Part shown: piece after piece, positions 3,470 through 45,028 of the stretch
Position numbering within the stretch: the stretch's first letter is position 1
How the letters are laid out: every line of letters begins with the position of its first letter
Assembly: GCA_937125455.1 (NCBI GenBank)
Contig: CAKZLK010000043.1
Span: 310,001 to 374,000, forward strand
Length of the DNA: 64,000 bases
Direction: 5' to 3'
From: an uncultured Aequorivita sp.
GTDB taxonomy: Bacteria; Bacteroidota; Bacteroidia; Flavobacteriales; Flavobacteriaceae
Notes under the pieces: model-generated
What the model was told of the DNA's origin: nothing
Seen by the model: the letters and a program-made list of their open reading frames with translations, nothing else
Databases searched by the model: none
Translations under genes and position numbers: made by a program

Positions 3470-4300
3470 ATGGCTAAACAAGATACATTAATAGGTAAGC
3501 ATCCAATTTCTCCAGATATTTTTGGAGAATGGCTTAATGGATTGGATCACCCCGATTCTGCGACTCAATGTCATAGAAGCCTTTCCGAAATTGATACGCA
3601 AGATGAAAATAAATTACTCGATTGGCTATCCAATGAAATAATAAAATACCATTATGATGAGGATAGGATTGGAAAACTAAAGGCTCGTTATAACTCATTA
3701 GGTTTTGAAGATTATGCTGAACAATACAGAATGATTCCTAATAATGAGGATACACGCAAGGGCAATATGGCAGAAATTATAATGTGTGAATACGTCATTA
3801 GTTCTACACAAAAACAACTTATTAAAACATTTCGATTTAGGTTCAGCACTAATGTAGACCAATCCATGAAAGGTGACGATATGCTAATGGTTGATTATAA
3901 TGAAGACGAAGATGATATTGAAGTTTATTTGGGAGAGGCAAAGTTTAGACAGGAACCAACCCCTAAATCAGTAAGGGACATTGCTAATTCACTTTCCAAA
4001 GATACCAAACCCCTTTCATTTACTTTTTTGGTTGATCGATTAAGAGAGCAACCTGCAACAAAAGCACTTGCGGATAGATTAGATAAATTCATTATCGAAA
4101 CGGTAAAAAGAAATGATAAATTGACCTATACAGGATTCCTTTTCAGTAATGAAGACACCTCTGAAAAGGTACAGGCTAATTTGGATAGTGATAATCCTCG
4201 TCTTGTTTTTATTTCATTGGGCGTAAATGATCCGTCTGATTTTATGCAAAAGGTTTTTGCTTTAGTTGAACAGAAAATTGCTAATCCTTCAACAATATGA
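3470..4300 (+). CDS. hamA: HamA-like (DUF1837) nuclease subunit of a Hachiman-type system
   Basis: 276 aa. RKGNMAEIIMCEYV ... KGDDMLMVDYNEDEDDIEVYLGEAKFR (E/D/ExK pattern of DUF1837). Overlaps the next helicase ORF by ATGA. Confidence 0.75.
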   Translation: MAKQDTLIGKHPISPDIFGEWLNGLDHPDSATQCHRSLSEIDTQDENKLLDWLSNEIIKYHYDEDRIGKLKARYNSLGFEDYAEQYRMIPNNEDTRKGNMAEIIMCEYVISSTQKQLIKTFRFRFSTNVDQSMKGDDMLMVDYNEDEDDIEVYLGEAKFRQEPTPKSVRDIANSLSKDTKPLSFTFLVDRLREQPATKALADRLDKFIIETVKRNDKLTYTGFLFSNEDTSEKVQANLDSDNPRLVFISLGVNDPSDFMQKVFALVEQKIANPSTI

Positions 4301-7300
4301 GTATAGAAAGAATATTGGCAGAAATAAATATTTTAAACGAGGACAAATATCTTCAAGATAGAGTCGCACAATTGAATGCTAGGTATATTCTTTTCAATAC
4401 TGATGAGAGTAGAGAAAATTTTCCCAATTATAGTGTTCGCGATGAAGAAATGACCCTATTGGCGTTTCAGTATTTAACACTTGGGTGTCAACTTGCAGAC
4501 AGAGAGCTTATCGATGAAGCTTCGGGAGCATTGGAAAGAGGAGCTCAAATATTAGAATACATATATGGTTCTAAAAATAATGAAGTCAATTTTCGCAGGT
4601 ATTATGTTTTAATATCCTCATTAGCATACTATTCGGCTTTTCAATATTCAAAATCATTCATTTTAATAAACAAGGCAGAAAATGAAACCACAATTGCAGG
4701 GTTGCTATCGCTATTTTTAAAAAGAAGATTCTCTGACCTACAAAACACCATTAACGCAATTTTGGTGGATGAAGAATACACAAGCATTAAAAGAAAAGAA
4801 GGGCATGGTGGGGAGGAGTCAGAGAGGATTTATGAAATAGTCATAGCGAGATCTTTAGGCAAAATAATTAGCTACCTTAATTTTGGTGATGAAAAATTAA
4901 TCAAAGATGCAAAGTCTGAATTGGAGACGCTAAAGGAAATTGCAGAATTAAGAGAGGATGTCGATGTTTGGTGGGTCATTAGGTTAATACTGATTATCAT
5001 TTTTGGAATAGAAAAATCCTCATTGTGGAGTGTACTACGAAGTCATTATGCAGATCTTCCTGAATTGGGAAGTCGTTTTATCTATTCCCATGTTTTTGCA
5101 AGACAAACTAAAATCCATGAGTTTTTTACTACCCAACGAAACGCACTACCGAAAGTCATTGGAAATGAATCAGGTGTTATTATTAGTATGCCAACAAGTA
5201 GTGGAAAAACACGTATTGCTGAAGTCTCTATTTTGGATTGTAAAATTCAAAATGAAAACTCTAAAATACTTTTTATTGCTCCCTATAGATCGTTAGCTTT
5301 TGAAATAGAAAATGATTTAGACAAGATTTTCAATCCTATTGGTGTTTCAGTATCACAATTATATGGAGGAAGTCTTTTTAGCAAAATTGATGAAAAACTA
5401 ATTCAGGATACAGACGTAATTATTGCTACACAAGAAAAGGCGAAGGCTTTATTTAGAAGTGATTCAGAAATTATTAAGACAATAAAATTAGTAGTACTTG
5501 ATGAAGGACACATGCTAGGTGCAGATGATAGGCTCATTAGGAATGAGCTTTTTATGGAAGAACTTCGTTATCATATTCAAAAGAACAAGGGGAAATTTGT
5601 AGTTCTTTCAGCTGTACTACCAAACCCTAAAGATCTTTCTAGTTGGTTAACAAACTCAGCAGATAATATTTATAAAAGCGACTGGCGACCGTCTGAAGAA
5701 CGAATAGGAACTTTGGAGTGGACTGGTAAAAATGTGAATTTAAATTGGGAAAGCGCAGATGATGAGAGAGACTCTTTCAATAACCGGTTTGTATTCGCAG
5801 AAAAACAGCCTAAAAAACCTAGAGAACGAATTGATAAATATTTACCTAGTAATTTAAATGAAGCTGTTTGCGCTACTGCTTTAAAGTTATTCTCATTTGG
5901 ACCTGTTTTAATTTTTGTTGGTCGAAAAGCTTCAGTTTTTACTATGGCGAGAGCATACGCACTAATTTTAGGTGAGGTAGAAGATTTTAATTGGAAAAAC
6001 AAAAATAACTGGAAGGCTTTTGAATTAGCCTGTGTTGAATTTGATGGTGTTGATTCTGAATGGCTAGCCTTTGCAAAAAAAGGTATTCTTTGTCATAACG
6101 CCAATCTACCTTCTGATGTTAGAATCCCCTTAGAAAGACTAATGCGAACAGAAAGACCAAGGGTTATTATTGCAACATCAACTTTAGGTCAGGGAGTAAA
6201 CTTAGGTGTATCATCGGTTATATTTTCAACATACTATCAAGCAGGAAAACCATTACCATTTAGTGATTTTTGGAACATCGCAGGACGAGCTGGAAGGGCA
6301 TTCGTTGACCAAGAAGGTAAAATATTAGTAGCATTAGATACTTCTGTTCGAGGTACTTTTAAACAAAGGAAGAATAATAGTTATAAGCAAAAACAGATTT
6401 TAAAATATTTTGATAAATCCAGTATTCAAAATGCGGAAAGTGGCTTGCTATGGATGATTCGAGCAATGAAAGTTTTTGCAAGGGATTTGGAAGGTATTCC
6501 TTTTGAAAAACTACTCGAACTTATAGCTGAAAATAGTTTTGAGAAACTTGAGAATAGCAAAGCATTTGTTGACGGTATGGATTTGATTGATGATACTCTT
6601 TTGGCTTTACATCAATTGGCATATAGAGATAACGTCCTTGACATTTCTTGGGTGGAAGATTTCTTCAGAAAATCCTTGGCTTATGTTCAATTACAAAATA
6701 ATCCTGATGAAGATATTGAAGTTGATCATATTATATCCTTTGTTCAGGCTAGGGTAAAAGGAATTATTAAATCCGTTGGAGAAAACATATTAGATTGGCA
6801 GAAGCATATAAAATCAGGAATTCCATTGCAGAGTGATCTTATGTTAGAAGAGGTTATGGAAGAAATATTAATAGTTCTTTTAGAGTATTTTGAACAGGAA
6901 GATAGTTCTGTGGAGGCTAAAATTAAACTTTTGGCTAACATTGAGGCACTTATAAATCATATCCCTGTACTCCAAGAAGATTATCTAAAAAGTAAAGACT
7001 TAAATGAAATTAGATGGTTATGGTTATCAGGGGAATCGATGACCAAGATTAAGTTGCTAGAGGATGCGCATCAAATAATAAATAAACATTACTCTTTTCA
7101 ATTACCGTGGGTACTAAATGGGATTGCAAAAAAATTAGAGGCTATGGAATATGAAGACGATGCTAAACTACTACAGGAGTTGGCAATTCTATCTGAAACA
7201 GGATTACCTAATTTAATGTCAGTAAAAATATATCAAGCGGGAATTAGATCAAGAGAATCTGCTATTGAAATAAGCGATAGTTTTGGAGGCGATTCTTGGG

Positions 7301-7695
7301 ATAAAGGAATTCAATATTATAAAAATATGATTTTAGAAAACGCTCAAAAGTTAAAGATTCTATTATCTGAAACTACGTCTAATTGGATTGAACTATTCTT
7401 ACTTTACAACGAAAAGGTGACCAAAACAGTTAATTATATTGAACCATTTGCTATTGAAGGATTAAAACATCAAGAAGAGCTTATTTTATTACCCAAGACT
7501 ATTAACGCTAAAGAATATCTTGTGAGTTCAGATTTTAAAGTAATGAAGCCCGTGAGAGAAGTTGGAGGTCTTTATGTTTCTGAAATTATAGATTTAGACG
7601 GTATCTTTTTTAGGAATAGAGCAGTAGACAATTTATGGGAATTAATTGTTATAAACCCAAATATTTATCTAAATATTCCAAATAATGAAGAGTAA
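4297..7695 (+). CDS. hamB: HamB-like superfamily 2 DEAD/DEAH-box helicase of a Hachiman-type system
   Basis: 1132 aa. MPTSSGKTRIAE (Walker A), VVLDEGHMLG (motif II), ATSTLGQGVNLG and FWNIAGRAGRA (motifs V/VI). Translationally coupled to hamA. Confidence 0.8.
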   Translation: MSIERILAEINILNEDKYLQDRVAQLNARYILFNTDESRENFPNYSVRDEEMTLLAFQYLTLGCQLADRELIDEASGALERGAQILEYIYGSKNNEVNFRRYYVLISSLAYYSAFQYSKSFILINKAENETTIAGLLSLFLKRRFSDLQNTINAILVDEEYTSIKRKEGHGGEESERIYEIVIARSLGKIISYLNFGDEKLIKDAKSELETLKEIAELREDVDVWWVIRLILIIIFGIEKSSLWSVLRSHYADLPELGSRFIYSHVFARQTKIHEFFTTQRNALPKVIGNESGVIISMPTSSGKTRIAEVSILDCKIQNENSKILFIAPYRSLAFEIENDLDKIFNPIGVSVSQLYGGSLFSKIDEKLIQDTDVIIATQEKAKALFRSDSEIIKTIKLVVLDEGHMLGADDRLIRNELFMEELRYHIQKNKGKFVVLSAVLPNPKDLSSWLTNSADNIYKSDWRPSEERIGTLEWTGKNVNLNWESADDERDSFNNRFVFAEKQPKKPRERIDKYLPSNLNEAVCATALKLFSFGPVLIFVGRKASVFTMARAYALILGEVEDFNWKNKNNWKAFELACVEFDGVDSEWLAFAKKGILCHNANLPSDVRIPLERLMRTERPRVIIATSTLGQGVNLGVSSVIFSTYYQAGKPLPFSDFWNIAGRAGRAFVDQEGKILVALDTSVRGTFKQRKNNSYKQKQILKYFDKSSIQNAESGLLWMIRAMKVFARDLEGIPFEKLLELIAENSFEKLENSKAFVDGMDLIDDTLLALHQLAYRDNVLDISWVEDFFRKSLAYVQLQNNPDEDIEVDHIISFVQARVKGIIKSVGENILDWQKHIKSGIPLQSDLMLEEVMEEILIVLLEYFEQEDSSVEAKIKLLANIEALINHIPVLQEDYLKSKDLNEIRWLWLSGESMTKIKLLEDAHQIINKHYSFQLPWVLNGIAKKLEAMEYEDDAKLLQELAILSETGLPNLMSVKIYQAGIRSRESAIEISDSFGGDSWDKGIQYYKNMILENAQKLKILLSETTSNWIELFLLYNEKVTKTVNYIEPFAIEGLKHQEELILLPKTINAKEYLVSSDFKVMKPVREVGGLYVSEIIDLDGIFFRNRAVDNLWELIVINPNIYLNIPNNEE

Positions 7696-9056: not shown

Positions 9057-9560
9057 CTATGTATCTTTTAATTTAAGAATCTCTTGCATTCGCTCCCAGT
9101 CCGATTGACGTTGAAAGCCCTTTTGATTATTTAGTTTTGTCTCTTTAGTTTTGTTATAGAGACCTATTTGCACTGGTTTCTGCTTCTGTTTGCGCACGTT
9201 GATGCTGTCATTTGCACAGGAATGGAACAGAGGTGCGTAAAAGATGCCTATCTTACCTTTACGAGATTCAGGTGTGTGCAGTAATCCACCTTGGTAATCA
9301 GTCACCTTAATTAATTGTTTGAGGATTAATGATTGGATTGTTGAAGGAAGGCTTCTTCTAGATATTCCAGTTGCCTTAATATATTGACTATGTGCTATTC
9401 GATCTCTTTGTTTTCGATTTCCGTTTTTCAATTTCCAACCGTATGTTTTTCGTATAATGAAGAGCAATAGCTTAAGCTCTGAATGGGTAAGGTTTGATAA
9501 TTGTTCGTCAAATAACTTATTGGGAACTTGAGTGGTTTGTTTGTATATCATGGTAAGCAT
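9057..9560 (-). CDS. Replication protein O-like winged-helix/HTH protein
   Basis: 167 aa. VPNKLFDEQLSNLTHSELKLLLFIIRKTYGW...ISRRSLPSTIQSLILKQLIKV resembles the phage replication protein O N-terminal domain. Confidence 0.5.
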   Translation of the reverse strand: MLTMIYKQTTQVPNKLFDEQLSNLTHSELKLLLFIIRKTYGWKLKNGNRKQRDRIAHSQYIKATGISRRSLPSTIQSLILKQLIKVTDYQGGLLHTPESRKGKIGIFYAPLFHSCANDSINVRKQKQKPVQIGLYNKTKETKLNNQKGFQRQSDWERMQEILKLKDT

Positions 9561-9679: not shown

Positions 9680-10750
9680 ATGGATTTAGGAAATCAGTTT
9701 GAAATAGACTTTCTCCCTGTAGGAGAGGGAGAAAAAAGCGGGGATGCTATTGCTATGAGATTCGGCGATTTTAGCGAGGAAGGCAGACAGTTTGTGGTTG
9801 TCATTGATGGTGGTGATAAAGAGACAGGAAATAGATTAGTGAAGCATATTAGAGAGCACTACAATTCAGAAACAGTGGATTTAATTATCTCAACCCATCC
9901 TGACAGCGATCATACTTCAGGATTGAGAATCGTAATGGAAGAATTAAATGTGAAAGGATTATGGATGCACTTACCATGGGAACACTCAGACCGAATCTGC
10001 GATTTATTTACCGATGGCCGTATAACTGATGAAAGCTTAAAGAAACGGTTGAGAAAAGCATATCGCTATGCATATGAACTTGAGCAACTTGCTATTGAAT
10101 ACAAGGTGCCTATTACCGAACCCTTCGCTGGTAATGAAAGCAAATGGGGGATTTTTAAAATTTTAGGACCTCAGGAAGATTACTATCGAGAATTGCTAAC
10201 CGATTCTGCTAAGACTCCGGAAAAAAAAGAGGGTCTGCGAGGTGCTACAATATTTGAACAAGTAAAAACATTTGCGAAGTCTGTTGTTAATTGGGTTTCA
10301 GAAACCCTAGAACAAGGATTACTTGATGATTCAGGCGAAACTTCTCCAGAAAACAACTCAAGTGTCGTTACCTTATTTCAATTTGATGGTAAGAAAATTC
10401 TATTTACTAGTGATACTGGTATGCCAGCTCTGAATCGTGTGATTGAATATTGCGACTTAAATGGAATTGATTTATCTGACTTAAATTTGGTCCAAATACC
10501 CCATCACGGAGCAAAGCGAAATATATCTCCTGATATAGTAAAATCAATCAGTGCGTCAACTGCAATTGTATCAGCATCTAAAAATGCTCCGAAACACCCT
10601 TCTTACCAAGTAACTAATGAGTTTCATAGAAATGGTTCAAATGTAGCAACTACTGAAGGGTCTATATTCTGTTACCATAATAATGTTGCTTCACGCCCAG
10701 GTTATACATCATTCATCCCACTAGGTTTTAAACCAAAAGTACAAGAATAG
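9680..10750 (+). CDS. Metallo-beta-lactamase-fold hydrolase (ComEC/Rec2-like MBL)
   Basis: 356 aa. VVIDGGDKETG, IISTHPDSDHTSGL (HxDxDH variant), FTSDTGMPAL, QIPHHGAKRN. Confidence 0.75.
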   Translation: MDLGNQFEIDFLPVGEGEKSGDAIAMRFGDFSEEGRQFVVVIDGGDKETGNRLVKHIREHYNSETVDLIISTHPDSDHTSGLRIVMEELNVKGLWMHLPWEHSDRICDLFTDGRITDESLKKRLRKAYRYAYELEQLAIEYKVPITEPFAGNESKWGIFKILGPQEDYYRELLTDSAKTPEKKEGLRGATIFEQVKTFAKSVVNWVSETLEQGLLDDSGETSPENNSSVVTLFQFDGKKILFTSDTGMPALNRVIEYCDLNGIDLSDLNLVQIPHHGAKRNISPDIVKSISASTAIVSASKNAPKHPSYQVTNEFHRNGSNVATTEGSIFCYHNNVASRPGYTSFIPLGFKPKVQE

Positions 10751-11680: not shown

Positions 11681-13318
11681 TTAGGGATCGTGGTCGGGAT
11701 AGAGAAGCTCATCCAATTTTGGAACATACTCATATTTATGATCTACAAAATTGCACCACTCCCTAAGCTCTTCATTACTTAAAGATGTCCGATCGAGCAA
11801 GGTCGTCCATTCATTAGCGATAACAAAGTCATAATTATCCGAGTGGAGAATATGTTGTGGGGAAGTTCGTGAGGTGTCCCGAGAATGGCAGCATTTTGAT
11901 GAATTCGATACTTTTAGCAACTCTTTAAAGGGAGAACGTAGTGAAAAATATAGAGATTTTTCAGAAACAGCAAAGTTCGAGGTTACTATTTCCAGTAATT
12001 TTCGTTTTTCTGTTTTATTTCCTGATTCATACGTATTTAAAAGGGATTTAGAAAGTTCGAGGAAATTTGTAATTTTCTCAGAAAACGACTGTTTTGGATT
12101 GGAAAGTTGCATTAATGATTGATCTAAAGAATGAATTGAATCTACAAGAGAATTCTTTTTCTTTTGATAATCTTCGGCACTTAAGAGATTCTCTAAGTAA
12201 GCTTCCAATAGTTTGTCCTCTTTGATTCTGAGTTTTCCAATATCTAGTTTTATTTGCTGGCGGATATTATCTGTTGACTCTTCTTTGAGAAAGTCGTCCT
12301 CAAGAATTATTTCCTCCACTTGTTTTTCTTCATTTGGATTGAGGGAAATAAATTTGATGGTATTTATAACGGATTTTTCTATAAAATCTTCTCGTCTTGA
12401 TTTTGTAGGACATCCTTTAGTCGCACAGCGGTAATAGACCATTCCTTTCTGATTTTCTCCCGACATAAAGTAGTCGCAGAGCTTACATTTAATTCGCTTT
12501 CTAAAGGTATAATCGTGTATTATACCTTTATGCTGAATCCTTCCTGTGAGTACTTCTTGCACTCTATGAAAAATATTTTTGGGTACAATTGCCTCGTGAA
12601 TTCCCGAAAAGAGTTTCCCATTCACTTCCATTAAACCTATATAAAAAGGATTCTTTAATAGTCGCAAGAGAGAATTTTTGTTGACGATATTTCCTTTAAA
12701 GTTTCTTAAGCCCTTTTCATACATTACTTTAGAAAGCATTTTTGCGTTATATTCTCCAGAAGCATAGAGCTTGAATAATTCTTGTACCAATTCATATTTT
12801 TTTGGGTCTTTGGTTTTGACTTTTCCTTTCCCCGTATTTAAATACCCAATGGGTGCACAAAAGGGATATAGTCCCTGATTCAATCTCCCGTAAATTCCTT
12901 TGATAGTTTCTTGTCTTAAGTTGCGCACATAATCCGAAGCCATCACTGCTTGAATATCTGCCGATAATCGCCCCCCACGTTCCGTCATATCCAAGCTTTC
13001 GTGTGCAAAATGGACTTGGATGCCATTATCAATTAAATCTCCCACTGCGGCCCAATCGTGAAGGTTTCGGGCGCTACGATCGATCTTATGCATAATGACT
13101 CCTTGAGATTTGCCATCTTTCAAAAGATTCATCATATCCGTGAATTTAGGTCGACCTTTTTTTGCCGCTGTTTGCGTTTCTTCAAACCATTTAATAATAT
13201 TGAGACGGTTCTTTGTGGCGTATTCAATGATTGAGCGTTCTTGCTCTGATAAAGATGCCCCATCTACTTGTTTTGTATCCGATACCCGTATATATCCAAA
13301 TACGTCATTTTTTCTCAT
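11681..13318 (-). CDS. Large serine recombinase (resolvase N-domain, recombinase domain, zinc ribbon)
   Basis: 545 aa. FGYIRVSDTKQVDGASLSEQ, MHKIDRSARNLHDW, GRLSADIQAVMASDYVRNLRQE, CKLCDYFMSG...CATKGCPTKS. Confidence 0.9.
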   Translation of the reverse strand: MRKNDVFGYIRVSDTKQVDGASLSEQERSIIEYATKNRLNIIKWFEETQTAAKKGRPKFTDMMNLLKDGKSQGVIMHKIDRSARNLHDWAAVGDLIDNGIQVHFAHESLDMTERGGRLSADIQAVMASDYVRNLRQETIKGIYGRLNQGLYPFCAPIGYLNTGKGKVKTKDPKKYELVQELFKLYASGEYNAKMLSKVMYEKGLRNFKGNIVNKNSLLRLLKNPFYIGLMEVNGKLFSGIHEAIVPKNIFHRVQEVLTGRIQHKGIIHDYTFRKRIKCKLCDYFMSGENQKGMVYYRCATKGCPTKSRREDFIEKSVINTIKFISLNPNEEKQVEEIILEDDFLKEESTDNIRQQIKLDIGKLRIKEDKLLEAYLENLLSAEDYQKKKNSLVDSIHSLDQSLMQLSNPKQSFSEKITNFLELSKSLLNTYESGNKTEKRKLLEIVTSNFAVSEKSLYFSLRSPFKELLKVSNSSKCCHSRDTSRTSPQHILHSDNYDFVIANEWTTLLDRTSLSNEELREWCNFVDHKYEYVPKLDELLYPDHDP

Positions 13319-13588: not shown

Positions 13589-14821
13589 GTGTCACAGTAT
13601 ATGCCACACCTAGATTGTATTTTCGATGCGAGTCATACTACTCGCATTATGAAATTTCGCAATCCCGAAATCAGCTATTTTGCCAAAACAAATTTTCGTT
13701 CTGACGGAAAGGTTTTTGGGATATTCCAAAAGGATCGTTTGATGCATACGTATATTTTAGGAAAGACCGGTGCTGGTAAAACAAACCTTCTCACAGCCCT
13801 CATTCTCCAAGACATCCTTCACGGGAGAGGATGTGCTGTTTTTGATGTACACGGTGACCTTTTGAATAACATTCTTAATAATATTACTGATGATAGAGTA
13901 AAAGATGTTATTCACTTAGATATTGCAAACCCACTCTTAACATATCGGTATAACCCCTTAAAAAAGGTAAGTGAAGAAAAAAAATCCCTTGTAGTTGGAG
14001 GATTACTCGATGCTTTTCATAAGCTATGGCGTGGAGCTTGGGGCGTAAAACTTGAACATATCTTACGGTACATTCTGCTTACGCTGTTATCACTTCCAAA
14101 ATCTGACCTCAGCGACATACCAAGAATTATTCACGATAGTAATTTTAGGGAACGGTGTGTAAGAATGGTTGATAATGAAGAAATCATTCGGTTTTGGAAA
14201 AGTGAATTCCCAAAATACACCAAAAACGATATCGTTCCCATTCTCAACAAAGTCGGAGCATTTCTAGCGCACCCATCTATTAAAAGATTTTTAATAACCA
14301 ACGAAAAAGACATTTCATTAAGACAGTGTATAGACCAATCCAAAATACTGTTGATTGATATTAGTAAGGGACGAATAGGTATAGATGCTTCTCACCTCAT
14401 TGGCTCTATTCTCATAACGTCTTTTGCCAATGCTTCCTTTACGCGGATTGATACCGAGGAAACGAAACGTGTTCCATTCCACATTTTTTTGGATGAGTTT
14501 CAAAATTACACCTCACCAAGTATTTCAGGAATATTAAGCGAGCTTCGAAAATTCAAAATTTCTTTAACCCTTGCTAATCAATATCTGTATCAGCTTGATA
14601 CGGATATTAAAAATGCCGTTCTGGGAAACGTTGGAACAATCATCGCCTTTAGAACGGGTCAGGCTGATGCCAAATATCTGGCACAAGAATTCTACCCAAT
14701 ATTTGAAACTTCAGACTTTACCAGTCTTGATAATTATGAGATTTATTTGAAGTTGATGATTTCAGGAAAACCGAGCAGACCATTTTCAGCCAGCACCATT
14801 CCATATCACAAAGTTCTGTGA
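13589..14821 (+). CDS. HerA/TraG-like ATPase (type IV coupling protein-like / TraM-recognition domain)
   Basis: 410 aa. ILGKTGAGKTNLL Walker A, FHIFLDEFQNYTSPS Walker B; GTG start. Confidence 0.75.
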   Translation: MSQYMPHLDCIFDASHTTRIMKFRNPEISYFAKTNFRSDGKVFGIFQKDRLMHTYILGKTGAGKTNLLTALILQDILHGRGCAVFDVHGDLLNNILNNITDDRVKDVIHLDIANPLLTYRYNPLKKVSEEKKSLVVGGLLDAFHKLWRGAWGVKLEHILRYILLTLLSLPKSDLSDIPRIIHDSNFRERCVRMVDNEEIIRFWKSEFPKYTKNDIVPILNKVGAFLAHPSIKRFLITNEKDISLRQCIDQSKILLIDISKGRIGIDASHLIGSILITSFANASFTRIDTEETKRVPFHIFLDEFQNYTSPSISGILSELRKFKISLTLANQYLYQLDTDIKNAVLGNVGTIIAFRTGQADAKYLAQEFYPIFETSDFTSLDNYEIYLKLMISGKPSRPFSASTIPYHKVL

Positions 14822-14904
14822 CATAGATGGAGCATACAACGACGTACCTTTTTTGGTTTTGAGGATTCTGTAATACTGCTGTTGAAACCACAATTCAATA
14901 CATT

Positions 14905-15363
14905 ATGAAAACACAACAGAATCTTTGTATTTGCCACGAAGTACAGATACATTATAAGCGTCCACTCTTTGAAACACAGCAAAAAATATCATCTTCGGAA
15001 TCAGTCGATGCGCTCTTGCGGGAATTTATTGATTTGGAACGTATCGACCATAAGGAATTCTTTTGGCTCATTCTCCTTAACAATAGCAACTACGTCATTG
15101 GGATGAGCGAAATCGGAGTGGGAAACACTACGGGAGTATGCGTAAACTTTAAAGAAATTTTCCAGTTGGCAATCCTTACCAATGCAACAGGCATTATCGT
15201 AGCCCACAACCATCCGAGCGGAAACCTGAAGGCATCCACATCGGATCTTCAGATCACCCAAAAACTGAAAGAATCAACCAAGCTTTTGGATATCATATTA
15301 CTCGACCATTTAATCATTACCTCAGAAGGTTTTCTCTCCCTATCGGATAATGGGGAACTATAG
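14905..15363 (+). CDS. RadC/JAB-domain protein
   Basis: 152 aa. GVCVNFKEIFQLAILTNATGIIVAHNHPSGNLKASTSDLQITQKL...DHLIIT. Confidence 0.9.
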   Translation: MKTQQNLCICHEVQIHYKRPLFETQQKISSSESVDALLREFIDLERIDHKEFFWLILLNNSNYVIGMSEIGVGNTTGVCVNFKEIFQLAILTNATGIIVAHNHPSGNLKASTSDLQITQKLKESTKLLDIILLDHLIITSEGFLSLSDNGEL

Positions 15364-15377
15364 CCTTTTAATTACCT

Positions 15378-16172
15378 ATGCCCAAGACCCCCATCACCTA
15401 CTACGGAGGAAAACTAAATATGCTCAAACATATCCTTCCAAATATTCCAGAGCATACCATTTATACAGAATCATTCTTTGGTGGTGGTGCGGTGTTTTTT
15501 GCAAAAGAGCCATCGGAATCTGAAATTATTAATGATGCCAATGCGATGGTGGTAAATTTTTTTGAAGTCTGTACCACAGATTTTGAAAGTCTGAGGATGA
15601 AAATTGAAGCAACCCTCTTCTCAAGGGCAACCTATTCAGTTGCTTATGCAATGTACCGAATGCCCCATTTGTTTGATAAAATCCAACAGGCGTGGGCATT
15701 TTATGTTGCAACGAATATGGGATTTGGGTGTCGGATTGGTTCGTGGGGATTTGATAAGTATGGAAAGCGATTAAAAGCATTTCAGAATAAGAAAATGCTA
15801 TTCGATGGAACAATTTTCAAACGTCTCTTACAAGCACAGATTGAACATAACGATGCGTGCAAGATCATTGAAACCTACGATACCAAGGATACCTTCCATT
15901 ACGTTGACCCGCCATATATCAATACCAATCAAGGTCACTATCAGGGATATAGTGAGGCAGATTATAAACGTCTATTAACTATTCTCTCACTGGTAAAAGG
16001 AAAATTTCTTTTAAGCAGTTTTCCTTCTGAAATTCTCGACAGCTTTATCAAAAAATTTGGTTGGCATACTCTTGAATTTTCTAAACCATTGACGGCTAAT
16101 AAAGCCACGCTTGGAAAAGCAAGAACAAGCCGAAAGACGGAAGTTCTTACGGCAAACTATCCATTAATTTAA
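15378..16172 (+). CDS. D12-class N6-adenine DNA methyltransferase (Dam-like), orphan
   Basis: 264 aa. ITYYGGKLNML, ESFFGGGAVFF, HYVDPPYINTNQ. Confidence 0.9.
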   Translation: MPKTPITYYGGKLNMLKHILPNIPEHTIYTESFFGGGAVFFAKEPSESEIINDANAMVVNFFEVCTTDFESLRMKIEATLFSRATYSVAYAMYRMPHLFDKIQQAWAFYVATNMGFGCRIGSWGFDKYGKRLKAFQNKKMLFDGTIFKRLLQAQIEHNDACKIIETYDTKDTFHYVDPPYINTNQGHYQGYSEADYKRLLTILSLVKGKFLLSSFPSEILDSFIKKFGWHTLEFSKPLTANKATLGKARTSRKTEVLTANYPLI

Positions 16173-16190
16173 CCTTTAAAATTAAATATT

Positions 16191-16400
16191 ATGAAAAAAG
16201 TAATAGACAAATCGGTCAATCTCGATTTGGTTGGCCACAACGGAAATGCATTCGCAATTATGGGTGTATTCCAAAGACAAGCCAGAAAAGAGGGCTGGAC
16301 GCAGGAAGAAATTGATATGGTGCTTGAAGAGGCTAAAAGTGGGGATTATAACCACTTACTCGCTACAATAATGAACCATTGTGAACCCGAGGAATTATGA
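16191..16400 (+). CDS. Small conserved-looking protein of mobile element
   Basis: 69-aa ORF in a tight co-directional cluster; overlaps the next ORF by ATGA. Confidence 0.55.
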   Translation: MKKVIDKSVNLDLVGHNGNAFAIMGVFQRQARKEGWTQEEIDMVLEEAKSGDYNHLLATIMNHCEPEEL

Positions 16401-16999
16401 ATATCAAGCAAAGAAAACTCGTCCTGCACTTCCTGCAACAATTACGGGATGGGTTGGTAAAAGAAAGAAATCAAGATATTAACGAACTATTCAACGAATT
16501 TTTTAACCGTGATGAACTCATTGATATTCTGGAGCATTCTTTTGCTGTTCAAGACCTTGAGGAGCATCAAATTGAAACTCTGGATAACGAAAATCTTTTA
16601 GAACTTATAGGTGAGGATTATTATATCCTCTCGTATCTGATAGAAAAGATAGAGGCAGGTATTACATCTGTTCCAAAAAAAAGTCAGTCCGAAATACATA
16701 ATTTCTTTGACCAGATCCAAATTGATCCCCACTATCTGCGGGACAAACCTGTAGAGGAGTGGGACGAGTATGATACGAGCAACTATTACTCCATATTATT
16801 TAAACACGGAAAGACAAAACGTGTCTTTGCCATTTTTACCTCTGATGTGAAATCGGAGGACAAGTATGTGGTAACGACCAAGCCCTCTTATTTCTTTGAT
16901 ACCAAAGAGGAAGCTAAAAAGGAAATTGATAACATTATCGTCGAAAACAAATTTTCCAGAGAAGATCTGGTGATTCATAGCCTTTGGCAGATAACTTAA
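16397..16999 (+). CDS. Hypothetical protein (200 aa)
   Basis: ORF in tight co-directional cluster. Confidence 0.6.
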   Translation: MNIKQRKLVLHFLQQLRDGLVKERNQDINELFNEFFNRDELIDILEHSFAVQDLEEHQIETLDNENLLELIGEDYYILSYLIEKIEAGITSVPKKSQSEIHNFFDQIQIDPHYLRDKPVEEWDEYDTSNYYSILFKHGKTKRVFAIFTSDVKSEDKYVVTTKPSYFFDTKEEAKKEIDNIIVENKFSREDLVIHSLWQIT

Positions 17000-17030
17000 A
17001 ACTGAATATTAACTTTAAATTTTAGAAACT

Positions 17031-17546
17031 ATGAACAATGCAAGTATTGTTGATGTTCTCATTGAGAACATCAAAACAGACCAAGGGCTGTTGGAAACAA
17101 CAGAGACCAAAATCAGTGAAGCCAAAGAAGAAAAGCGGGCTATTGCTGATAGACTGAAGGACTATAGGAGGGATGTCTCTGTATTGCTGAAATACGCAGA
17201 TGACCAGCACCGTAAACAGATTGAGGAACTCGGTTTCAACTTTTCGGAATCGGAACAGGGGCTGAACCCCGTTGCCCAAACAGCACTGGACCTTATCCTT
17301 GCCGCAAAGGGCAACCAGATGACGAACGAGAAACTGTATAACGCATACGCGAATACCTTTAAGAAAAAGGAGGATGCGTTCAATTACACCGAGTTCAATA
17401 TCAAGACCCGTTCTCTTTTCAACACGCAACGGTTGTTGCGCAAGAAAGGCAAGGATCCTAAATCATCAAGGGATGATGTTATTTCCTTAAACGGTCGGGT
17501 AATGAAAAAAGAAGTTCCCGCTATTGAGGAATCTAAAAGCAAATAA
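17031..17546 (+). CDS. Hypothetical coiled-coil protein (171 aa)
   Basis: ORF in cluster, higher GC than surroundings, heptad-like N-terminus. Confidence 0.6.
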   Translation: MNNASIVDVLIENIKTDQGLLETTETKISEAKEEKRAIADRLKDYRRDVSVLLKYADDQHRKQIEELGFNFSESEQGLNPVAQTALDLILAAKGNQMTNEKLYNAYANTFKKKEDAFNYTEFNIKTRSLFNTQRLLRKKGKDPKSSRDDVISLNGRVMKKEVPAIEESKSK

Positions 17547-17550
17547 TTAT

Positions 17551-17979
17551 ATGGACACCTTTTTAGATTTGTTTAACGATAGACAGAAAGCTATTGACCA
17601 CGCATTGTGGCTCAACTTCAAGTACCGTATCGCCAATATCAAGTTCGGGGTCATTCACGGCCCCGAAAATGATTGGGCGGTATGTGAAAAAGCTACTGCC
17701 GATGAAATGGGACAAACTTTTTTGAATGTAATGCCAGATGACCATTCCACAATGAGCTATCGTGACATCCGACACATTAGGATGGATCGGGAGCCACTTC
17801 TACATTGGGAAGCCATTACAGGAATGTTCTCAGTTGCCGATGGTGAGATACTTCGGTATTTATTGTACGCTAAAATCCCGATTGAGAAGTTCATTCGATA
17901 TGAACTTGCTTCTCGTGGATATGACAAGAGCCACCGCTGGTGTGGTTTTGATAAAGCCGAGGAGATTTGGCTAAAATGA
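17551..17979 (+). CDS. Hypothetical protein (142 aa)
   Basis: Start reassigned to MDTFLDLFNDRQKAIDH, just after the upstream ORF stop. Confidence 0.6.
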   Translation: MDTFLDLFNDRQKAIDHALWLNFKYRIANIKFGVIHGPENDWAVCEKATADEMGQTFLNVMPDDHSTMSYRDIRHIRMDREPLLHWEAITGMFSVADGEILRYLLYAKIPIEKFIRYELASRGYDKSHRWCGFDKAEEIWLK

Positions 17980-37586: not shown

Positions 37587-38171
37587 ATGAATGACGTTTT
37601 ATATTATATCACTATATATGGAACATATTTTTTATATGCGATTATTATATTCTATATACTAAGATCCATTTTTCGTTCATCATTTAAAAATTATCATTCC
37701 AATTGGAATACCCTCATTAATAATTTTGATTTTTCAACGGAAGCATTTTATAAGCATTTTAAAAAAGAACTATTGAGCCACGGCATTAGTGGTATTACTG
37801 CTGAAAGTGTATCCTTATTCGAAGGCAGTATTTTCTCAGCTCGTAGAAGATATATCCGTATCACGTGGAAGGATTATCAATATGATATTTGTGCCGCTCC
37901 TTTTGGTGATGGTTTTTTTATTTCGTGGTGGCTTCTCTATAAAAATTCTTTGGGACAATTGTTAGTTTCAATTATCCCTTTTGTAGGAGGTTGGTTGGCG
38001 AGAAAACTTTATCCTATAACCTACTACAAAATAGATACTGCATCAATGTTTATGACCTTTGCACAAACTGCTGTCCTCAAGGTAATTGATGATATTACAA
38101 ATGAAAAAGGAATACGTTCCTTATCCGAATCCCAACGAAAGCCTATTCTGAACGATATTTTTAAACGTTGA
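37587..38171 (+). CDS. Membrane protein coupled to HerA/TraG-like ATPase
   Basis: 194 aa; N-terminal TM; TGA overlaps TTG start of next ORF. Confidence 0.6.
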   Translation: MNDVLYYITIYGTYFLYAIIIFYILRSIFRSSFKNYHSNWNTLINNFDFSTEAFYKHFKKELLSHGISGITAESVSLFEGSIFSARRRYIRITWKDYQYDICAAPFGDGFFISWWLLYKNSLGQLLVSIIPFVGGWLARKLYPITYYKIDTASMFMTFAQTAVLKVIDDITNEKGIRSLSESQRKPILNDIFKR

Positions 38172-41155
38172 GTAAATTACAAGAACAAGCAACTATAAAC
38201 TTTTATCAATGGGAATCACGAGGACGAGGATATTTTCATTTTAATACTACTGTTCAGGTAGAACCACCCTACGCACCCTTTGTGCCTATCAATTATTCAG
38301 ACATCCCGAATATTGACGATGGCAGAGTTCCATCACTCCTTATACAACTTACCAACCTTCTCAGTCCTCCAAAAAAAGTAAAAGAAGACCCAAACATTGA
38401 TGAAATTGTTCCGGTTGAAGTAATCAGCCGCTTAAAACGGGAATGCATAACCATAGCCTTTCCCATGGGTACTGATATTTCTGCACTCTTGATGCACGAG
38501 ATGTTGAACCTTCTAAGTTTTTCAGAAGAATTTTTTTCCTTTGAAATACTAGCGCAGAATGGAGAAATGAGAATTCAGTTCACATCCAGCAAATCTGATA
38601 GTGTTCGCCTACAATCACACCTTCAAGCATTCTTCCCAACCATAATCATTCGAATCAAAGATGCGTTTGATATCAATTTTGATCTCAATGAAACGGTTGC
38701 GATAGCAGATTTTGGACTTGATAATGAATTTATGCTTCCTATAAACAGCACGGACAGCTTAACTATTGATCCCTTAACCTCAATCATTGCAACACTCGGA
38801 ACAATGGAAGAAAGCGAAACCGCCATCTTTCAAATCATCTTTAATGGCGTTACAGCCCCTTGGTCGAGGGATATGCTCTATGCAGTATCTGATGGTCGTG
38901 GGGGGAGTTTTTTTGAAGGATACCCAGAATTTGTAAAAGCTACTCAAGAAAAAGTTAGTTGTCCACTTTTTGGCGTGGTGATGCGTATTGGAGTTCAGGG
39001 TATCATTGAAGAACGAAGCCGCTCAATCGCACGTGATTTAACTAGAACCATAACCACCGTTTCAAGTTCAGAATATAATAGGCTCATACCCTTATCAAAT
39101 GAAGGCTATGAATACGATGACCACCTGCGGAATATCTATCACAGGACAACGAATAGGATAGGGTTTATTCTTAATTCAAAAGAACTTGCACATTTTGTCC
39201 ACTATCCTAATAAAACAGTCGTGAGCGATAAGCTTGGGTTAACTGGTGGTAAAACAAAGCGACAAGAACATCCATCTAATGAAGGCATACATATTGGAAC
39301 GAATATTCATCAAGGACAAGAATATCCAGTAACCCTTGATGCCGGATCGAGACTTTCCCATACCCATATTATTGGTGCTACGGGAGTAGGTAAATCGACG
39401 CTCGTCGCCAATATGATACTAAGAGATATTGAGGAGGGAAGAGGTTGTGCCATCTTTGATCCTCACGGAGATATTTGTGATGACATCCTCAAACGAATTC
39501 CTATCCATAGAATAAGTGATGTTATCCTCATTGATCCTTCGGATAGTGAATACCCTATAGGTTTTAATCTCTTAGAAGCTCATACCGAAGCTGAAAAAAT
39601 AGTACTCTCATCTGATCTTGTTTCGGCTTTTAAGCGTCACGCAACTGCTTGGGGAGATAATATGACGGCCGTCTTACAAAATGCGGTCAATACTATCTTG
39701 GATAGCACAAGAGGTGGTACGCTCATAGAGCTTAAACGTTTCCTTATTGAAGAATCTTTTAGAAACGAGTACCTCACATCAGTAGATGATCCTTCACTCC
39801 ATTACTATTGGCAAAACGAATACACTATGGTACGAAAGGGCATCGCTCCGCTCCTAACCCGCATCGATACCTTTCTCAGGCCTAAGCTTGTGCGGTATAT
39901 GTTGGCACAAAAATCAGGCGTGGATATTTCAGAATGTTTAAGGGAGAACAAAATCGTCTTATTGAAACTCTCCCAAGGTCTCATTGGAGAGCAGAATAGT
40001 TATTTGCTCGGTTCTCTTTTCTTGGCAAAGTTCAACCAAGCTGCACTCGCACGCCAATCTGAATCAAGGAATGAACGCTCCCCATATATGTTATATTTGG
40101 ATGAATTTCAGAATTTTATAACCCCCAGCATAGAACGAATTCTAAGTGGTGCGAGAAAGTATGCTCTTGGGATAACCATTGTTCATCAGGAGCTTGGGCA
40201 AGTTCAAGATAATTCATTATTAAACTCGATACTTTCAAATCCCAAAACCCGTATTTGTTTTAGGCTTGGAGATAATGATGCGAAACGCTTAGAGTCTGGT
40301 TTCTCTTATTTTGAACAATCGGATTTACAAAATCTTGGACGAGGGGAAGCCATTATGCGCATAGGTTCGAGCAATAATGATTTTAACCTAAATACCTTTC
40401 CGCTGTCTGAAGATATCGAAGATTGTTCGGAGGCTATTATTAAGAATGTTCGCTTGAAGTATGCTATTCCACGAGAAGAGGTTGAAGAATTACTTGTATC
40501 CATACTGCCAAAAATAGCATCAAAACCACGAACAAAACAAGAACGTATAATCACTGAAAAGAATGAACCTCAGGAAGCAATCATCAAGGAAAAGGAAGCC
40601 GAGGTTTCTCATTCCAAAATTTCAAAGGAAAAACGAAGTCAATTAATTGCTTCAGAAAATGAATCCTTAGAGATTAGAGCCCATACCTATTTGCAATCAA
40701 CTATTAAAAAACTCGGACAAGACCGAAACTTTATTGCAACCATTGAATCACCAACTAACTATGGAGGCAGAATTGATATCCTTTTGGAACGTGACGGAAT
40801 GAAAATTGGGTTTGAAATATCAGAAACCAACAAGCCAGCTTATGAAGTTGAGAATATTAAAAAATGTTTAAAGGTGGGTTGTATTCCCGTGGTAATGGTT
40901 TCAAAAAACAAAAAGCATTTGAATGCCATTGAGAAACTAGCTTCAGAAAAACTCTCAAAAAAAGCTATACAAATGGTAAAATTTATTCAACCAGATGCAA
41001 TAGCAGCACTTTTAGATTCATATATAACAATGCCACTTAAAAATGAAGAAATGGTAAAGGGGTTTAGGGTGGTAACTGAATTTGAACAATCGGATAATGA
41101 ACAAATAAAGGGTATTAAATCAAAGCTCAAAAGAATATTTAAGCCAAAAAAATAA
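38168..41155 (+). CDS. HerA/TraG-like ATPase with C-terminal PD-(D/E)XK-like domain
   Basis: 995 aa. IIGATGVGKSTLVANMI, LYLDEFQNFITPS; C-term TNYGGRIDILLERDGMKIGFEISETNK. Confidence 0.75.
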   Translation: MSKLQEQATINFYQWESRGRGYFHFNTTVQVEPPYAPFVPINYSDIPNIDDGRVPSLLIQLTNLLSPPKKVKEDPNIDEIVPVEVISRLKRECITIAFPMGTDISALLMHEMLNLLSFSEEFFSFEILAQNGEMRIQFTSSKSDSVRLQSHLQAFFPTIIIRIKDAFDINFDLNETVAIADFGLDNEFMLPINSTDSLTIDPLTSIIATLGTMEESETAIFQIIFNGVTAPWSRDMLYAVSDGRGGSFFEGYPEFVKATQEKVSCPLFGVVMRIGVQGIIEERSRSIARDLTRTITTVSSSEYNRLIPLSNEGYEYDDHLRNIYHRTTNRIGFILNSKELAHFVHYPNKTVVSDKLGLTGGKTKRQEHPSNEGIHIGTNIHQGQEYPVTLDAGSRLSHTHIIGATGVGKSTLVANMILRDIEEGRGCAIFDPHGDICDDILKRIPIHRISDVILIDPSDSEYPIGFNLLEAHTEAEKIVLSSDLVSAFKRHATAWGDNMTAVLQNAVNTILDSTRGGTLIELKRFLIEESFRNEYLTSVDDPSLHYYWQNEYTMVRKGIAPLLTRIDTFLRPKLVRYMLAQKSGVDISECLRENKIVLLKLSQGLIGEQNSYLLGSLFLAKFNQAALARQSESRNERSPYMLYLDEFQNFITPSIERILSGARKYALGITIVHQELGQVQDNSLLNSILSNPKTRICFRLGDNDAKRLESGFSYFEQSDLQNLGRGEAIMRIGSSNNDFNLNTFPLSEDIEDCSEAIIKNVRLKYAIPREEVEELLVSILPKIASKPRTKQERIITEKNEPQEAIIKEKEAEVSHSKISKEKRSQLIASENESLEIRAHTYLQSTIKKLGQDRNFIATIESPTNYGGRIDILLERDGMKIGFEISETNKPAYEVENIKKCLKVGCIPVVMVSKNKKHLNAIEKLASEKLSKKAIQMVKFIQPDAIAALLDSYITMPLKNEEMVKGFRVVTEFEQSDNEQIKGIKSKLKRIFKPKK

Positions 41156-41219: not shown

Positions 41220-42770
41220 ATGAATGTTGCAATATTTATACGTGTAAGCACCTTAGACCAAGCAAACAACACCGACTCAGTTGAGACCCATATTGAGCGT
41301 GGCAAACTTTACGCCAAAGCACGGCAATGGAATGTGATCAAAATATACAATCTCGCTGGGGTATCGGGTAAAAGTACCATCAATCACAAACAGACGCATC
41401 AAATGTTTGATGATATCCGCTGTGGAAAAATTGAAGGAGTCATCATTAGTTCTTTAAGCCGTTTGGCACGAAACACTTCTGAGCTTCTTGAATACAGTAA
41501 ATTCTTTGAAGAACATAATGCTTCACTCATATCAATTAATGAATCCTTGGACACCTCGACAAGTGGTGGCAAGTTTTTTTACACCCTCCTTTCGGCACTC
41601 TCAACCTATGAAAGAGAAATTACCAACGAACGCCAAATAGCTAGTTTAAACTATCGTAGAAAACAAGGGAAGTTTACGGGCGGGATGGTAAGTTATGGAT
41701 ACAAAATTGAAGATGCGGAAGTTGTCATTAATGAAGAAGAAGCACCAGTCCGTAGATTGATCTATGATATTTTTCTGGAACATAGAAGAATGAGTACCAC
41801 AGCAAAAGAACTAAATAAAAGAGGATATGTAACAAGGAAAGGTAAAACTTGGACAGATACAACCATACGAAGATTACTTAAGAATACTGATGCAAAAGGA
41901 ATGCGCAAATGCAACTACCGAGGACAACTATCCAAAGATAATCCCTCTGGTCTTAAACCCCATTCTGAATGGCAATATCTTCCTTGTCCTGCACTTATAT
42001 CAGAAGAAAAATGGGATGAAGTCAATGCTATCATCCGTGACCAAGAGAAGGGAAGTGTATTTAAGCAACCCCTCAATCTGCGGGTACATCTATTCACAGG
42101 ATATTTGAAATGTGTGGAAGGTCATACCATGAGTATTCAATCCAAAAGCAACCGATATACTTGCAAGAAATGCAAATACGGAATTGGAAAGGATGATTTG
42201 GAAGAGGTTTTCTTGAGTAGATTAAAACAATTCCTTATTTCAGACCAAGAACTTTCAGAATATAACAAATCAAATATTCAAGAATTACAATTGAAAACTG
42301 ACGAAATTGAGTTTGCTCAAAATGAATTACAAAAACTTGAAGACAAGCTTGAAAGATTAGTTGACCTTAACATACAAGGTGAAATTCCAACCAAAGGATT
42401 TAAAAAACATTACGAACCCATTTATATTCGAAAGGAAAGTTTAGAAACCACTATCAAAGATTTGAAACGAGAATTAGAACAGATGCAACAAGCGAAAACA
42501 TCATTTGATGTTATTGCTAATAAATCATTAGATTTTTATAGCAATTGGAAAAATCTTGATAGAGGTGAAAAACGTTCTGTCGTAGAGTCTATAACGAATG
42601 AAATTATTTTTGATAACAAAAGTCTCGTATTTAAACTGAAACAGATAGCTCCACTATCTTCTTTGGAATTAACCGCAAATGGTCAACAACGAGGCACAAC
42701 ATTGTCGCCTGGGGAAAAACCGCTGAGATCATTGAAAATTATGTCACAAAAGGAAAAGAAGTGGCGATAG
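41220..42770 (+). CDS. Large serine recombinase/integrase
   Basis: 516 aa. VAIFIRVSTLDQANNTDSVETH, GVIISSLSRLARNTSELLEY, zinc-ribbon CVEGHTMSIQSKSNRYTCKKCKYG; C-terminal about 25 codons lie in ssb-derived DNA. Confidence 0.9.
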   Translation: MNVAIFIRVSTLDQANNTDSVETHIERGKLYAKARQWNVIKIYNLAGVSGKSTINHKQTHQMFDDIRCGKIEGVIISSLSRLARNTSELLEYSKFFEEHNASLISINESLDTSTSGGKFFYTLLSALSTYEREITNERQIASLNYRRKQGKFTGGMVSYGYKIEDAEVVINEEEAPVRRLIYDIFLEHRRMSTTAKELNKRGYVTRKGKTWTDTTIRRLLKNTDAKGMRKCNYRGQLSKDNPSGLKPHSEWQYLPCPALISEEKWDEVNAIIRDQEKGSVFKQPLNLRVHLFTGYLKCVEGHTMSIQSKSNRYTCKKCKYGIGKDDLEEVFLSRLKQFLISDQELSEYNKSNIQELQLKTDEIEFAQNELQKLEDKLERLVDLNIQGEIPTKGFKKHYEPIYIRKESLETTIKDLKRELEQMQQAKTSFDVIANKSLDFYSNWKNLDRGEKRSVVESITNEIIFDNKSLVFKLKQIAPLSSLELTANGQQRGTTLSPGEKPLRSLKIMSQKEKKWR

Positions 42771-42871
42771 AAGGAAAACTGACTTCCAGATCATATGATG
42801 ATAAAGAAGGAGTAAAAAGATACATTACAGAGGTTGTATGTAACGAGCTAGTCATGCTGGGGAGTAAATAA
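42692..42871 (+). pseudogene. ssb: 3' fragment of single-stranded DNA-binding protein gene, truncated by element insertion
   Basis: Alternate frame translates WHNIVAWGKTAEIIENYVTKGKEVAIEGKLTSRSYDDKEGVKRYITEVVCNELVMLGSK* (first W codon reads AGG); no start or N-terminal OB-fold half upstream. Confidence 0.85.
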
Positions 42872-42946: not shown

Positions 42947-45028
42947 ATGGAAACAACATCCCAGCTAAATAAGTTCGATCTGCTCAAAACGCATTTCGGC
43001 TACGAGAAATTTCTTCCGAATCAGGAAGAAATAATAAATAATGTTTTAGAAAAAAAAGATACTATTGCCATTATGCCCACGGGCGGTGGTAAATCTCTAT
43101 GTTTTCAATTGCCTGCCTTGGCTTTGGAAGGAACTGCCATTGTTATTTCTCCACTAATTGCTTTAATGAAAGATCAAGTGGATGCATTAAAAGCAAATGG
43201 GATTTCAGCGACTTTTTTTAACAGTTCCCAACCGTACGAAGAGCAACAACAAGTTTTAAAAGATCTGCAAAATGGAAATTTAAAGTTATTATATGTAGCT
43301 CCCGAAAGTCTTCCACATTTGAATTTTATTCTGAATTCAATAAAAATAAGCCTTTTTGCAGTTGATGAAGCGCACTGTATTTCCAGTTGGGGTCACGATT
43401 TTCGTCCAGCTTATACGCAACTGAAAAGTTTGAAGGAACAATACCCAAACGTTCCGTTGATCGCATTAACCGCAACAGCAGATGGAGCTACTCGTGAAGA
43501 TATTGCAACGCAACTTGCTATTCCAAATGCCAAGACATTCATAGCTTCTTTTGATAGACCAAATTTGTATTTGGATGTTCGACCTGGCCAAAACCGTAAC
43601 AAGCAGATTTTGGATTTTCTGAAAAACCATTCTGATGAAAGTGGCATTATTTATTGTTTAAGCAGAAAAAGCACCGAAAAACTAGCGGCAACACTAAAAT
43701 CTAAAGGTTACAAAGCTGAAGCCTACCACGCGGGGATCACTTCCGAAGAAAGAAGTAATATTCAAGATAATTTCACGAATGATAGAACACCCATAATTGT
43801 GGCCACAATCGCATTCGGAATGGGCATCGACAAAAGCAACGTGCGCTGGGTAATTCATTATAATATGCCAAAAAATATTGAAGGCTATTATCAAGAAATA
43901 GGTCGTAGCGGAAGAGATGGTTTGCCTTCTCATACCATTCTTTTTTACAGTTTTGCCGATGTTATTATGCTTCGGAAGTTTGCTGAAGGTTCCGAAACCG
44001 AAGCTTATCAATTGGCAAAACTTGAACGTATGCAACAATTTGCAGAAGCTTTAAGCTGCAGAAGAAAGGCTCTTTTGGGTTATTTTGGGGAACACATCAC
44101 TGAAGATTGCGGGAATTGCGATATCTGCAAAACTCCTCCCAAATATTTTGACGGTACGCTTATCGCCCAAAAAGTCTGTTCCGCTGTGGCAAGACTACAG
44201 GAGCAAGAAGCATTAGGTATGGTTCTGGATGTACTTCGCGGTTCACAAAATGCTCAGGTTTACGATAAAGGTTACCAAAACATAAAAACTTTCGGCGTTG
44301 CAAAAGATGTTTCTTGGCGAGATTTGCAGCAATATGCCATTCAACTTTTAAATCAGGGAGTTTTACAAATCTATTTTCACGAAAACGGGCGGTTGTTGCT
44401 TACGCCTTTCGCAAAAAAAGTTTTATATGAAGGCAAAAAAGTTCGGTTGGCAAACATAATTCAAGAAGTGGAAAAAGTAAAAATAGAAAAAACGCCACGA
44501 AAACGTGCTGATCTGTTTGAAAAATTGAAAGCCCTTCGCCTAAAATTAGCACAGGAAGCTGGTATGCCTGCATATATAGTTTTCAGTGACGCCGCTTTGG
44601 AAGACATGGAATACAAAAAGCCGAGAAATCTAGAGGAGTTTGCAGATATTTCGGGGGTTGGAAAAGCGAAACTTGATAAATATGCAGATGATTTCCTAAA
44701 AGTAATCAATCGGCATTTGGACGGTTTGGAAAGCGACTTACCAACGCACGAACGCAGTTATAAAATGTTTACTGAGGGTGATATTTCACCTGAGGAAATT
44801 GCTAAGCAACGTGGCCTTTCCGAAGATTCGGTTTATGGACATTTCATAAAAATGCATCAATTAGGAAGTAAATTTGACTTTTCGGAATTCATTACTCCTG
44901 AAGAAATTCAACAAATAAAAAACGCTCAGAAAACGCTCGAAAATCCCGAGGCATTAAAACCGTATTTTGAATATTTCGAGGAGAAAATGCCGTATTGGAA
45001 GATAAAAATGGGCCTATATTTAGGTTGA
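42947..45028 (+). CDS. recQ: ATP-dependent DNA helicase RecQ
   Basis: 693 aa. [51 protein letters not shown], Zn-binding C-x(n)-CGNCDIC, HRDC-like region. Confidence 0.95.

Follow-up and report, generated by a model that had tools for sequence, protein, structure and literature searches.

Large serine recombinases (LSRs) that act as integrases are well known to insert their elements into protein genes, and many mobile elements limit the harm of insertion by choosing tRNA genes or the ends of genes. The target of the Mx8 prophage of Myxococcus is also tRNA genes, and we know of no replacement of the target in that case. The attP of Mx8 lies within int, which acquires a new 3′ end on integration, and this arrangement has been called a molecular switch (PMC6070905). 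In the archaeal elements SSV1, pTN3 and pT26-2, the recombination site lies within the gene of a tyrosine integrase, which is split on integration; a review termed this suicidal trait exclusively archaeal (PMC8371274). The islands in tRNA genes (tDNA islands) carry a fragment that restores the tRNA gene they split (Islander, PMC4383910), and the targets of LSRs were observed to be enriched in competence genes (PMC10083194).

Here we describe an integrative element in the genome of an uncultured Aequorivita sp. (Flavobacteriaceae; 3.73 Mb draft, 63 contigs), which splits an ssb gene and carries a second, complete ssb. The window, i.e. the whole stretch of 64,000 nucleotides that was analysed, is C43:310001-374000 of contig C43 (window base 1 = C43:310001). 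Like the phiC31/Bxb1-type integrases of phages and integrative elements, the enzyme of this element has Resolvase and Recombinase domains, a near-palindromic attP with a non-palindromic central dinucleotide and one conserved target. However, its attP lies inside the integrase gene itself, and the circular form has an extra C-terminal HTH that is lost on integration. Mx8 shares with it the attP inside int and a C-terminus that is swapped by integration while the enzyme is kept (PMC6070905), but the present element uses an LSR, its target is a protein gene that is hit in the middle, and what the integrase loses can be recognised as an HTH domain. With SSV1, pTN3 and pT26-2 it has in common a recombination site inside int and the splitting of that gene by integration. 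Those integrases, however, belong to another recombinase superfamily and their N-terminal part is split from the catalytic portion, whereas here the catalytic and DNA-binding LSR domains remain whole. As in the tDNA islands, the target is split, a compensating sequence is brought and a displaced fragment marks the other end; in contrast to them, a protein gene is split mid-way, and what is brought is not a matching fragment but a complete, separately evolved homologue. The shared core here is only 3–8 bp, and a whole carried ssb is present instead.

The split host gene, the island and the right flank were located as follows.

C43:309162-309320, + strand: 5′ half of the host ssb (Pfam SSB 2-53 match at C43:309177-309332)
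Window 1-42695, no strand: island body within the window; the left end is outside it, at C43:309321, 680 bp left of base 1
Window 42695-42871, + strand: 3′ half of the host ssb, residues 54-111 and stop (frame reading, Pfam SSB, rejoining)
Window 42947-45028, + strand: recQ, the host flank right of the island, adjoining the ssb 3′ half

The frame from 42680 reads ..HNIVAWGKTAEIIENYVTKGKEVAIEGKLTSRSYDDKEGVKRYITEVVCNELVMLGSK up to a stop codon and is the 3′ half of an SSB (Pfam SSB positions 44-103, 64 bits). A sequence-only reading of the window had inferred from this fragment that a mobile island of more than 42 kb sits inside ssb, with its right junction at about GGCACAACATTGTCGCCTGG and its left junction upstream of base 1. 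We observed that this is indeed the true right junction, with the ssb 3′ half at 42693-42871, and that this contig also contains the ssb 5′ half, 0.7 kb to the left of window base 1 and on the + strand like the 3′ half. The sequence GGCACAAC is present at both junctions (C43:309319 and window 42693), and the island measures 43,374 bp between these core copies. Joining the flanks in silico gave an intact SSB of 111 aa. The corresponding empty site in Aequorivita sp. MAG LH_M31 (L029) is collinear across the junction (94% over 2732 bp, 0 gaps), similar uninterrupted ssb loci beside recQ occur in many more genomes of the genus, and the host ssb region found a match in 28/28 genomes searched within the genus. 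That reading would have been refuted by an intact copy of this ssb elsewhere, or by related genomes having the fragment without the element. No such copy was found in the genome, where the other six SSBs are different proteins, and the relatives carry the intact gene instead. The anatomy of the insertion, an island inside ssb, is close to certain. The window genome also holds one 165-aa SSB and four small SSB paralogues; the latter (contigs C2, C30, C38 and C60; L130-L133) are 65–71% identical to the split ssb.

The integrase and its attachment site occupy the right end of the island.

Window 41220-42770, + strand: LSR (integrase), truncated form, 516 aa (Pfam, frame analysis)
Window 42671-42692, + strand: element half-site of attR (..AAATGGTCAACAACGA), one arm of the attP inverted repeat (attP symmetry; conserved in relatives)
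Window 42693-42700, + strand: shared core GGCACAAC, with the inferred crossover dinucleotide CA at 42695-42696 (junction comparison, relatives)

By inference from its anatomy, the island was inserted by the LSR encoded at 41220-42770, in which Pfam detected the Resolvase (PF00239, 1.6e-29) and Recombinase (PF07508, 2e-19) domains. The sequence-only reading had described a serine recombinase gene fused to an ssb fragment, and this ORF fits the description: residues 1-491 are coded by the element and the last 25 aa are ssb DNA read out of frame. Both the integrated form (516 aa) and the rejoined one (589 aa) have the domains and the size of an LSR (Resolvase plus Recombinase, about 450–600 aa), and the attachment sites are also of the LSR type, with inverted-repeat arms of attP, a non-palindromic centre and a short core common to attB and attP. 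After rejoining, attP reads CGCAAATGGTCAACAACG-AGG-CA-CAA-CGTCGTTGACCATTTGCG. Its inverted-repeat arms, common to the relatives, lie on both sides of the non-palindromic central dinucleotide CA and are symmetric at 18/24 pairs, and 7 of 20,000 random sites score as high. When inverted-repeat symmetry was tested for attB in ssb, it was not above chance. The bases shared by attL and attR are 8 bp in the window genome and go down to GCA in relatives (range 3–8 bp). We place the crossover at CA because the symmetry centre and these shared bases coincide there; by inference, it falls within the His codon of the conserved Trp-His-Asn motif of SSB.

Relatives of the element were searched via the integrase, and not via ssb. 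From the genome contigs we obtained six homologues (53–83% identity), and a search of the family added G284 at 80%. Including that of the window there are eight elements (53–100% integrase identity, Flavobacteriaceae), i.e. seven other sampled genomes share the arrangement. All eight split ssb at the same codon, the integrase being followed by an SSB 3′ half that starts near residue 54; the opposite end has, in all of them, the SSB 5′ half, then an HTH frame on the same strand and then a complete SSB gene. The ssb ORF was open after rejoining in 8/8 cases. The elements that could be followed contiguously measure about 30 kb (Zhouia), 33 kb (G031), 44.5 and 45 kb (two Kordia) and 43 kb (the window); only five are contiguous from end to end, because the ends of those in G028 and G029 are on separate contigs and that of G284 is partly inverted. 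In the latter (C1:2546517-2602736), the right end with int and the ssb 3′ half is on the strand opposite to the left end, pointing to an inverted segment that has one of its breakpoints within the element. G029 (Flavivirga aquimarina; contigs C115, C4 and C24; L105, L104, L106-L108) has two ssb 5′ halves and two 3′ halves, and therefore a stacked or repeated insertion at one ssb locus. A helicase is found at its outer right end where int would be, as in a relic in G713 (see below). A scan of viral contigs gave no relative of the integrase, and from plasmids and phages only distant LSRs (about 23–29% identity among the matches listed) and no circular form were found.

The body of the element carries the following genes in the window.

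37587-38171, + strand: 194-aa core protein without a Pfam match, 5′ of the ATPase gene, with homologues in other elements
38168-41155, + strand: HerA/VirD4-type ATPase, core gene adjoining int (Pfam TrwB_AAD_bind 1.8e-9, DUF87 4.9e-9)
13589-17979, + strand: core block of a VirD4/TraG-like ATPase, RadC, D12 DNA adenine methylase and three unknown proteins
11681-13318, − strand: second large serine recombinase, with a 54% identical homologue beside the same core genes in a related element that splits dprA
9057-9560, − strand: phage replication protein O-like protein, common to most elements
3470-7695, + strand: cargo, the Hachiman-type defence genes HamA and HamB

Homologues of the HerA/VirD4-type ATPase (50–66% identical) are found beside int in the relatives and in the element that splits dprA. 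Other cargo includes RHS-type proteins and proteins with Por secretion tails. Window positions 9680-10750 encode an MBL-fold protein resembling the defence candidate PDC-M48B / LmuA. Among the hallmarks of ICEs, Pfam gave two VirD4/HerA-like ATPases and neither a relaxase nor a T4SS channel, although several core proteins are without a known family. Therefore, we named it an integrative element, whose mode of transfer is unknown.

The 680 bp left of base 1 contain the attL arm and two coding parts.

C43:309322-309615, + strand: HTH part of int (HTH_3 domain, frame analysis)
C43:309599-309931, + strand: carried ssb, complete, directly behind the truncated host ssb

When the circle was rejoined in silico, the int frame remained open through attP into the HTH_3 domain in 8/8 elements, giving int-HTH proteins of 589 aa (window clade) or 581 aa (Kordia clade and G031). 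Once the element is integrated, int ends 3–25 residues past the crossover at residue 490/491; as attP is inside int, integration swaps the HTH domain for 3–25 arbitrary residues. The HTH frame has no stop, the other two frames being full of them, and is under purifying selection (dN/dS = 0.12–0.24 between near relatives). In the broad sense, this is a self-splitting (suicidal) integrase, with attP within the int ORF and int disrupted by integration. It does not belong to the archaeal suicidal tyrosine integrases, as its domains are those of a serine recombinase.

In all eight elements the carried ssb starts 437–445 bp after the host ssb start codon and on the same strand. The carried SSBs (110–111 aa) are intact in all cases and under strong purifying selection (dN/dS = 0.03–0.08). 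In the circle form, int-HTH and ssb either overlap by 14–17 nt or are separated by a gap of 11–12 nt. In the window genome, no terminator-like site was found in the stretch that leads from the host ssb start to the carried ssb; such a site is present directly after the carried ssb. The carried SSB of this genome shares 56–61% identity with the native kind found in empty sites. The native ssb-recQ loci of the genus (L063-L090) show two strongly diverged allele types, at one locus and in different species, and the carried genes occur in both types. In the window clade the carried allele is of the type opposite to that of the host; the carried genes of G031 and G032 group with the ssb of their own host. 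One common origin of the carried ssb was not supported: the tree requires several changes, with carried genes in both allele types, so the substitute ssb was exchanged at least once. Asn55, adjacent to the crossover, is changed to Pro or Ser in 7/9 carried alleles, in two lineages; variants of this residue number one (His) in the native panel of the genus and none among the eight split hosts. That such changes might block re-insertion is suggestive only, and the case is weak, since in two carried alleles the Asn is unchanged and the differences are confined to the surrounding DNA.

Next, we considered more distant and decayed elements. G317 has a related 48 kb element (C2:156739-204631; a relative of 36% identity) that splits dprA. 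It shares many core genes with the ssb elements and has an int-HTH fusion across attP (640 aa), and rejoining restores dprA. This element was checked for ssb and for a second dprA and carries neither, though the control consists of a single element. As this relative shares it, the int-HTH fusion probably predates the use of ssb as a target, judging from the sequences compared. The element of G120 (a 41% relative; ssb intact) has no carried ssb. Its target, and that of a 41% LSR in G713 (C1:736616), were sought and not resolved. G713 also has a decayed 5.1 kb relic between ssb halves (C1:2495125-2500610; L163:7125-12610), from which int is absent and in which the HTH frame is broken and the carried ssb intact. 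The relic consists of the ssb 5′ half, the broken HTH, the carried ssb, an AbiE-like pair and an IS200-like transposase (both by eye), a helicase fragment and the ssb 3′ half.

We consider it likely that the integrative element, which splits the conserved ssb, also supplies its replacement. The replacement function is inferred, and there are no expression or complementation data. Mechanistically, the LSR would recombine attP in its own gene with attB in the small ssb, crossing at CA of the His codon of Trp-His. By anatomy, integration splits the host ssb, cuts int from its C-terminal HTH and puts the carried ssb behind the start of the host ssb. The host ssb promoter is then predicted to transcribe the carried ssb, which would take over the job of the lost SSB, and the insertion would therefore be of little cost to the host. 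As its attachment site differs, the carried allele may be a poor target for re-insertion. The truncated integrase, having kept the canonical LSR domains, might still be able to excise the element if assisted by an unidentified helper, and excision would restore the host ssb as well as the complete int-HTH gene. Because the same arrangement recurs in the seven other genomes, it looks like a built-in limit on host damage. Against this reading stands the lack of expression or excision data for the element; moreover, the split ssb may be non-essential, because the genome keeps the 165-aa SSB and the four small paralogues.

The carried ssb could instead serve the element itself. An ssb for coating ssDNA is found on many plasmids, and the carried gene may be one for the element's own replication or transfer, its position being incidental to an int-HTH-ssb operon of the circle in which attP happens to lie in int. 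The overlapping or abutting of int-HTH and ssb in the circle agrees with this, as do the replication and VirD4-like genes of the elements. We nevertheless regard it as unlikely. No ssb is present in the dprA element, which shares many core genes and the int-HTH fusion, nor in that of G120. Target and carried gene both encode small SSBs of one kind, the carried gene of G031 and G032 groups with that of the host, and the relic of G713 retains the carried gene intact without int. The absence of ssb from these two elements, its persistence in the relic, the selection on it and the position of the terminator-like site favour a replacement over mere cargo.

It is still less probable that the element gains by inactivating an ssb of DNA uptake or recombination, an anti-competence effect that would block chromosomal curing, with a diverged or interfering carried SSB. 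The splitting of dprA by a related element, the enrichment of competence genes among LSR targets (PMC10083194) and the identity of only about 56–61% between the carried SSB and the native kind speak for it. However, purifying selection on the carried SSBs, all of them full-length, is strong, the same allele type is the native recQ-locus ssb in other species of the genus, and nothing in the analysis links the split ssb to competence. An assembly chimera or a decayed pseudogene without precise integration, which a draft of 63 contigs could have produced, is refuted by the independent genomes, since the same architecture is found in separate assemblies from other genera. In addition, a single contig of 442 kb contains both junctions, and the rejoined ssb is open in 8/8 cases.

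Returning to the reading of a replaced ssb, a more far-reaching form of it can be put forward only tentatively and with less than even confidence. One crossover would break the host gene, plug in a substitute that resists re-insertion under the host promoter, and strip int of its HTH, which would change its activity or direction; decay of the element would then leave the substitute behind, and ssb alleles would be replaced across the family. Such a substitute, altered at the attachment site, would resemble a recoded rescue copy.

A literature search, in which coverage was incomplete (most subscription journals lay outside it), gave no report of islands or of an element family in ssb, and none of an element family that brings along a complete homologue of the gene it splits. 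New LSR attB/attP pairs that may have a switch built in are of practical use. The element also provides a bacterial serine integrase that truncates itself on integration, a trait described in a review as exclusively archaeal (PMC8371274) even though Mx8 is a bacterial case (PMC6070905). In the Flavobacteriaceae, this is a family of elements that strikes the middle of a conserved protein gene and yet brings a complete putative replacement linked to the attachment site. This carried ssb is kept by selection even after the element has decayed, and the elements may have driven the exchange of ssb allele types in the genus.
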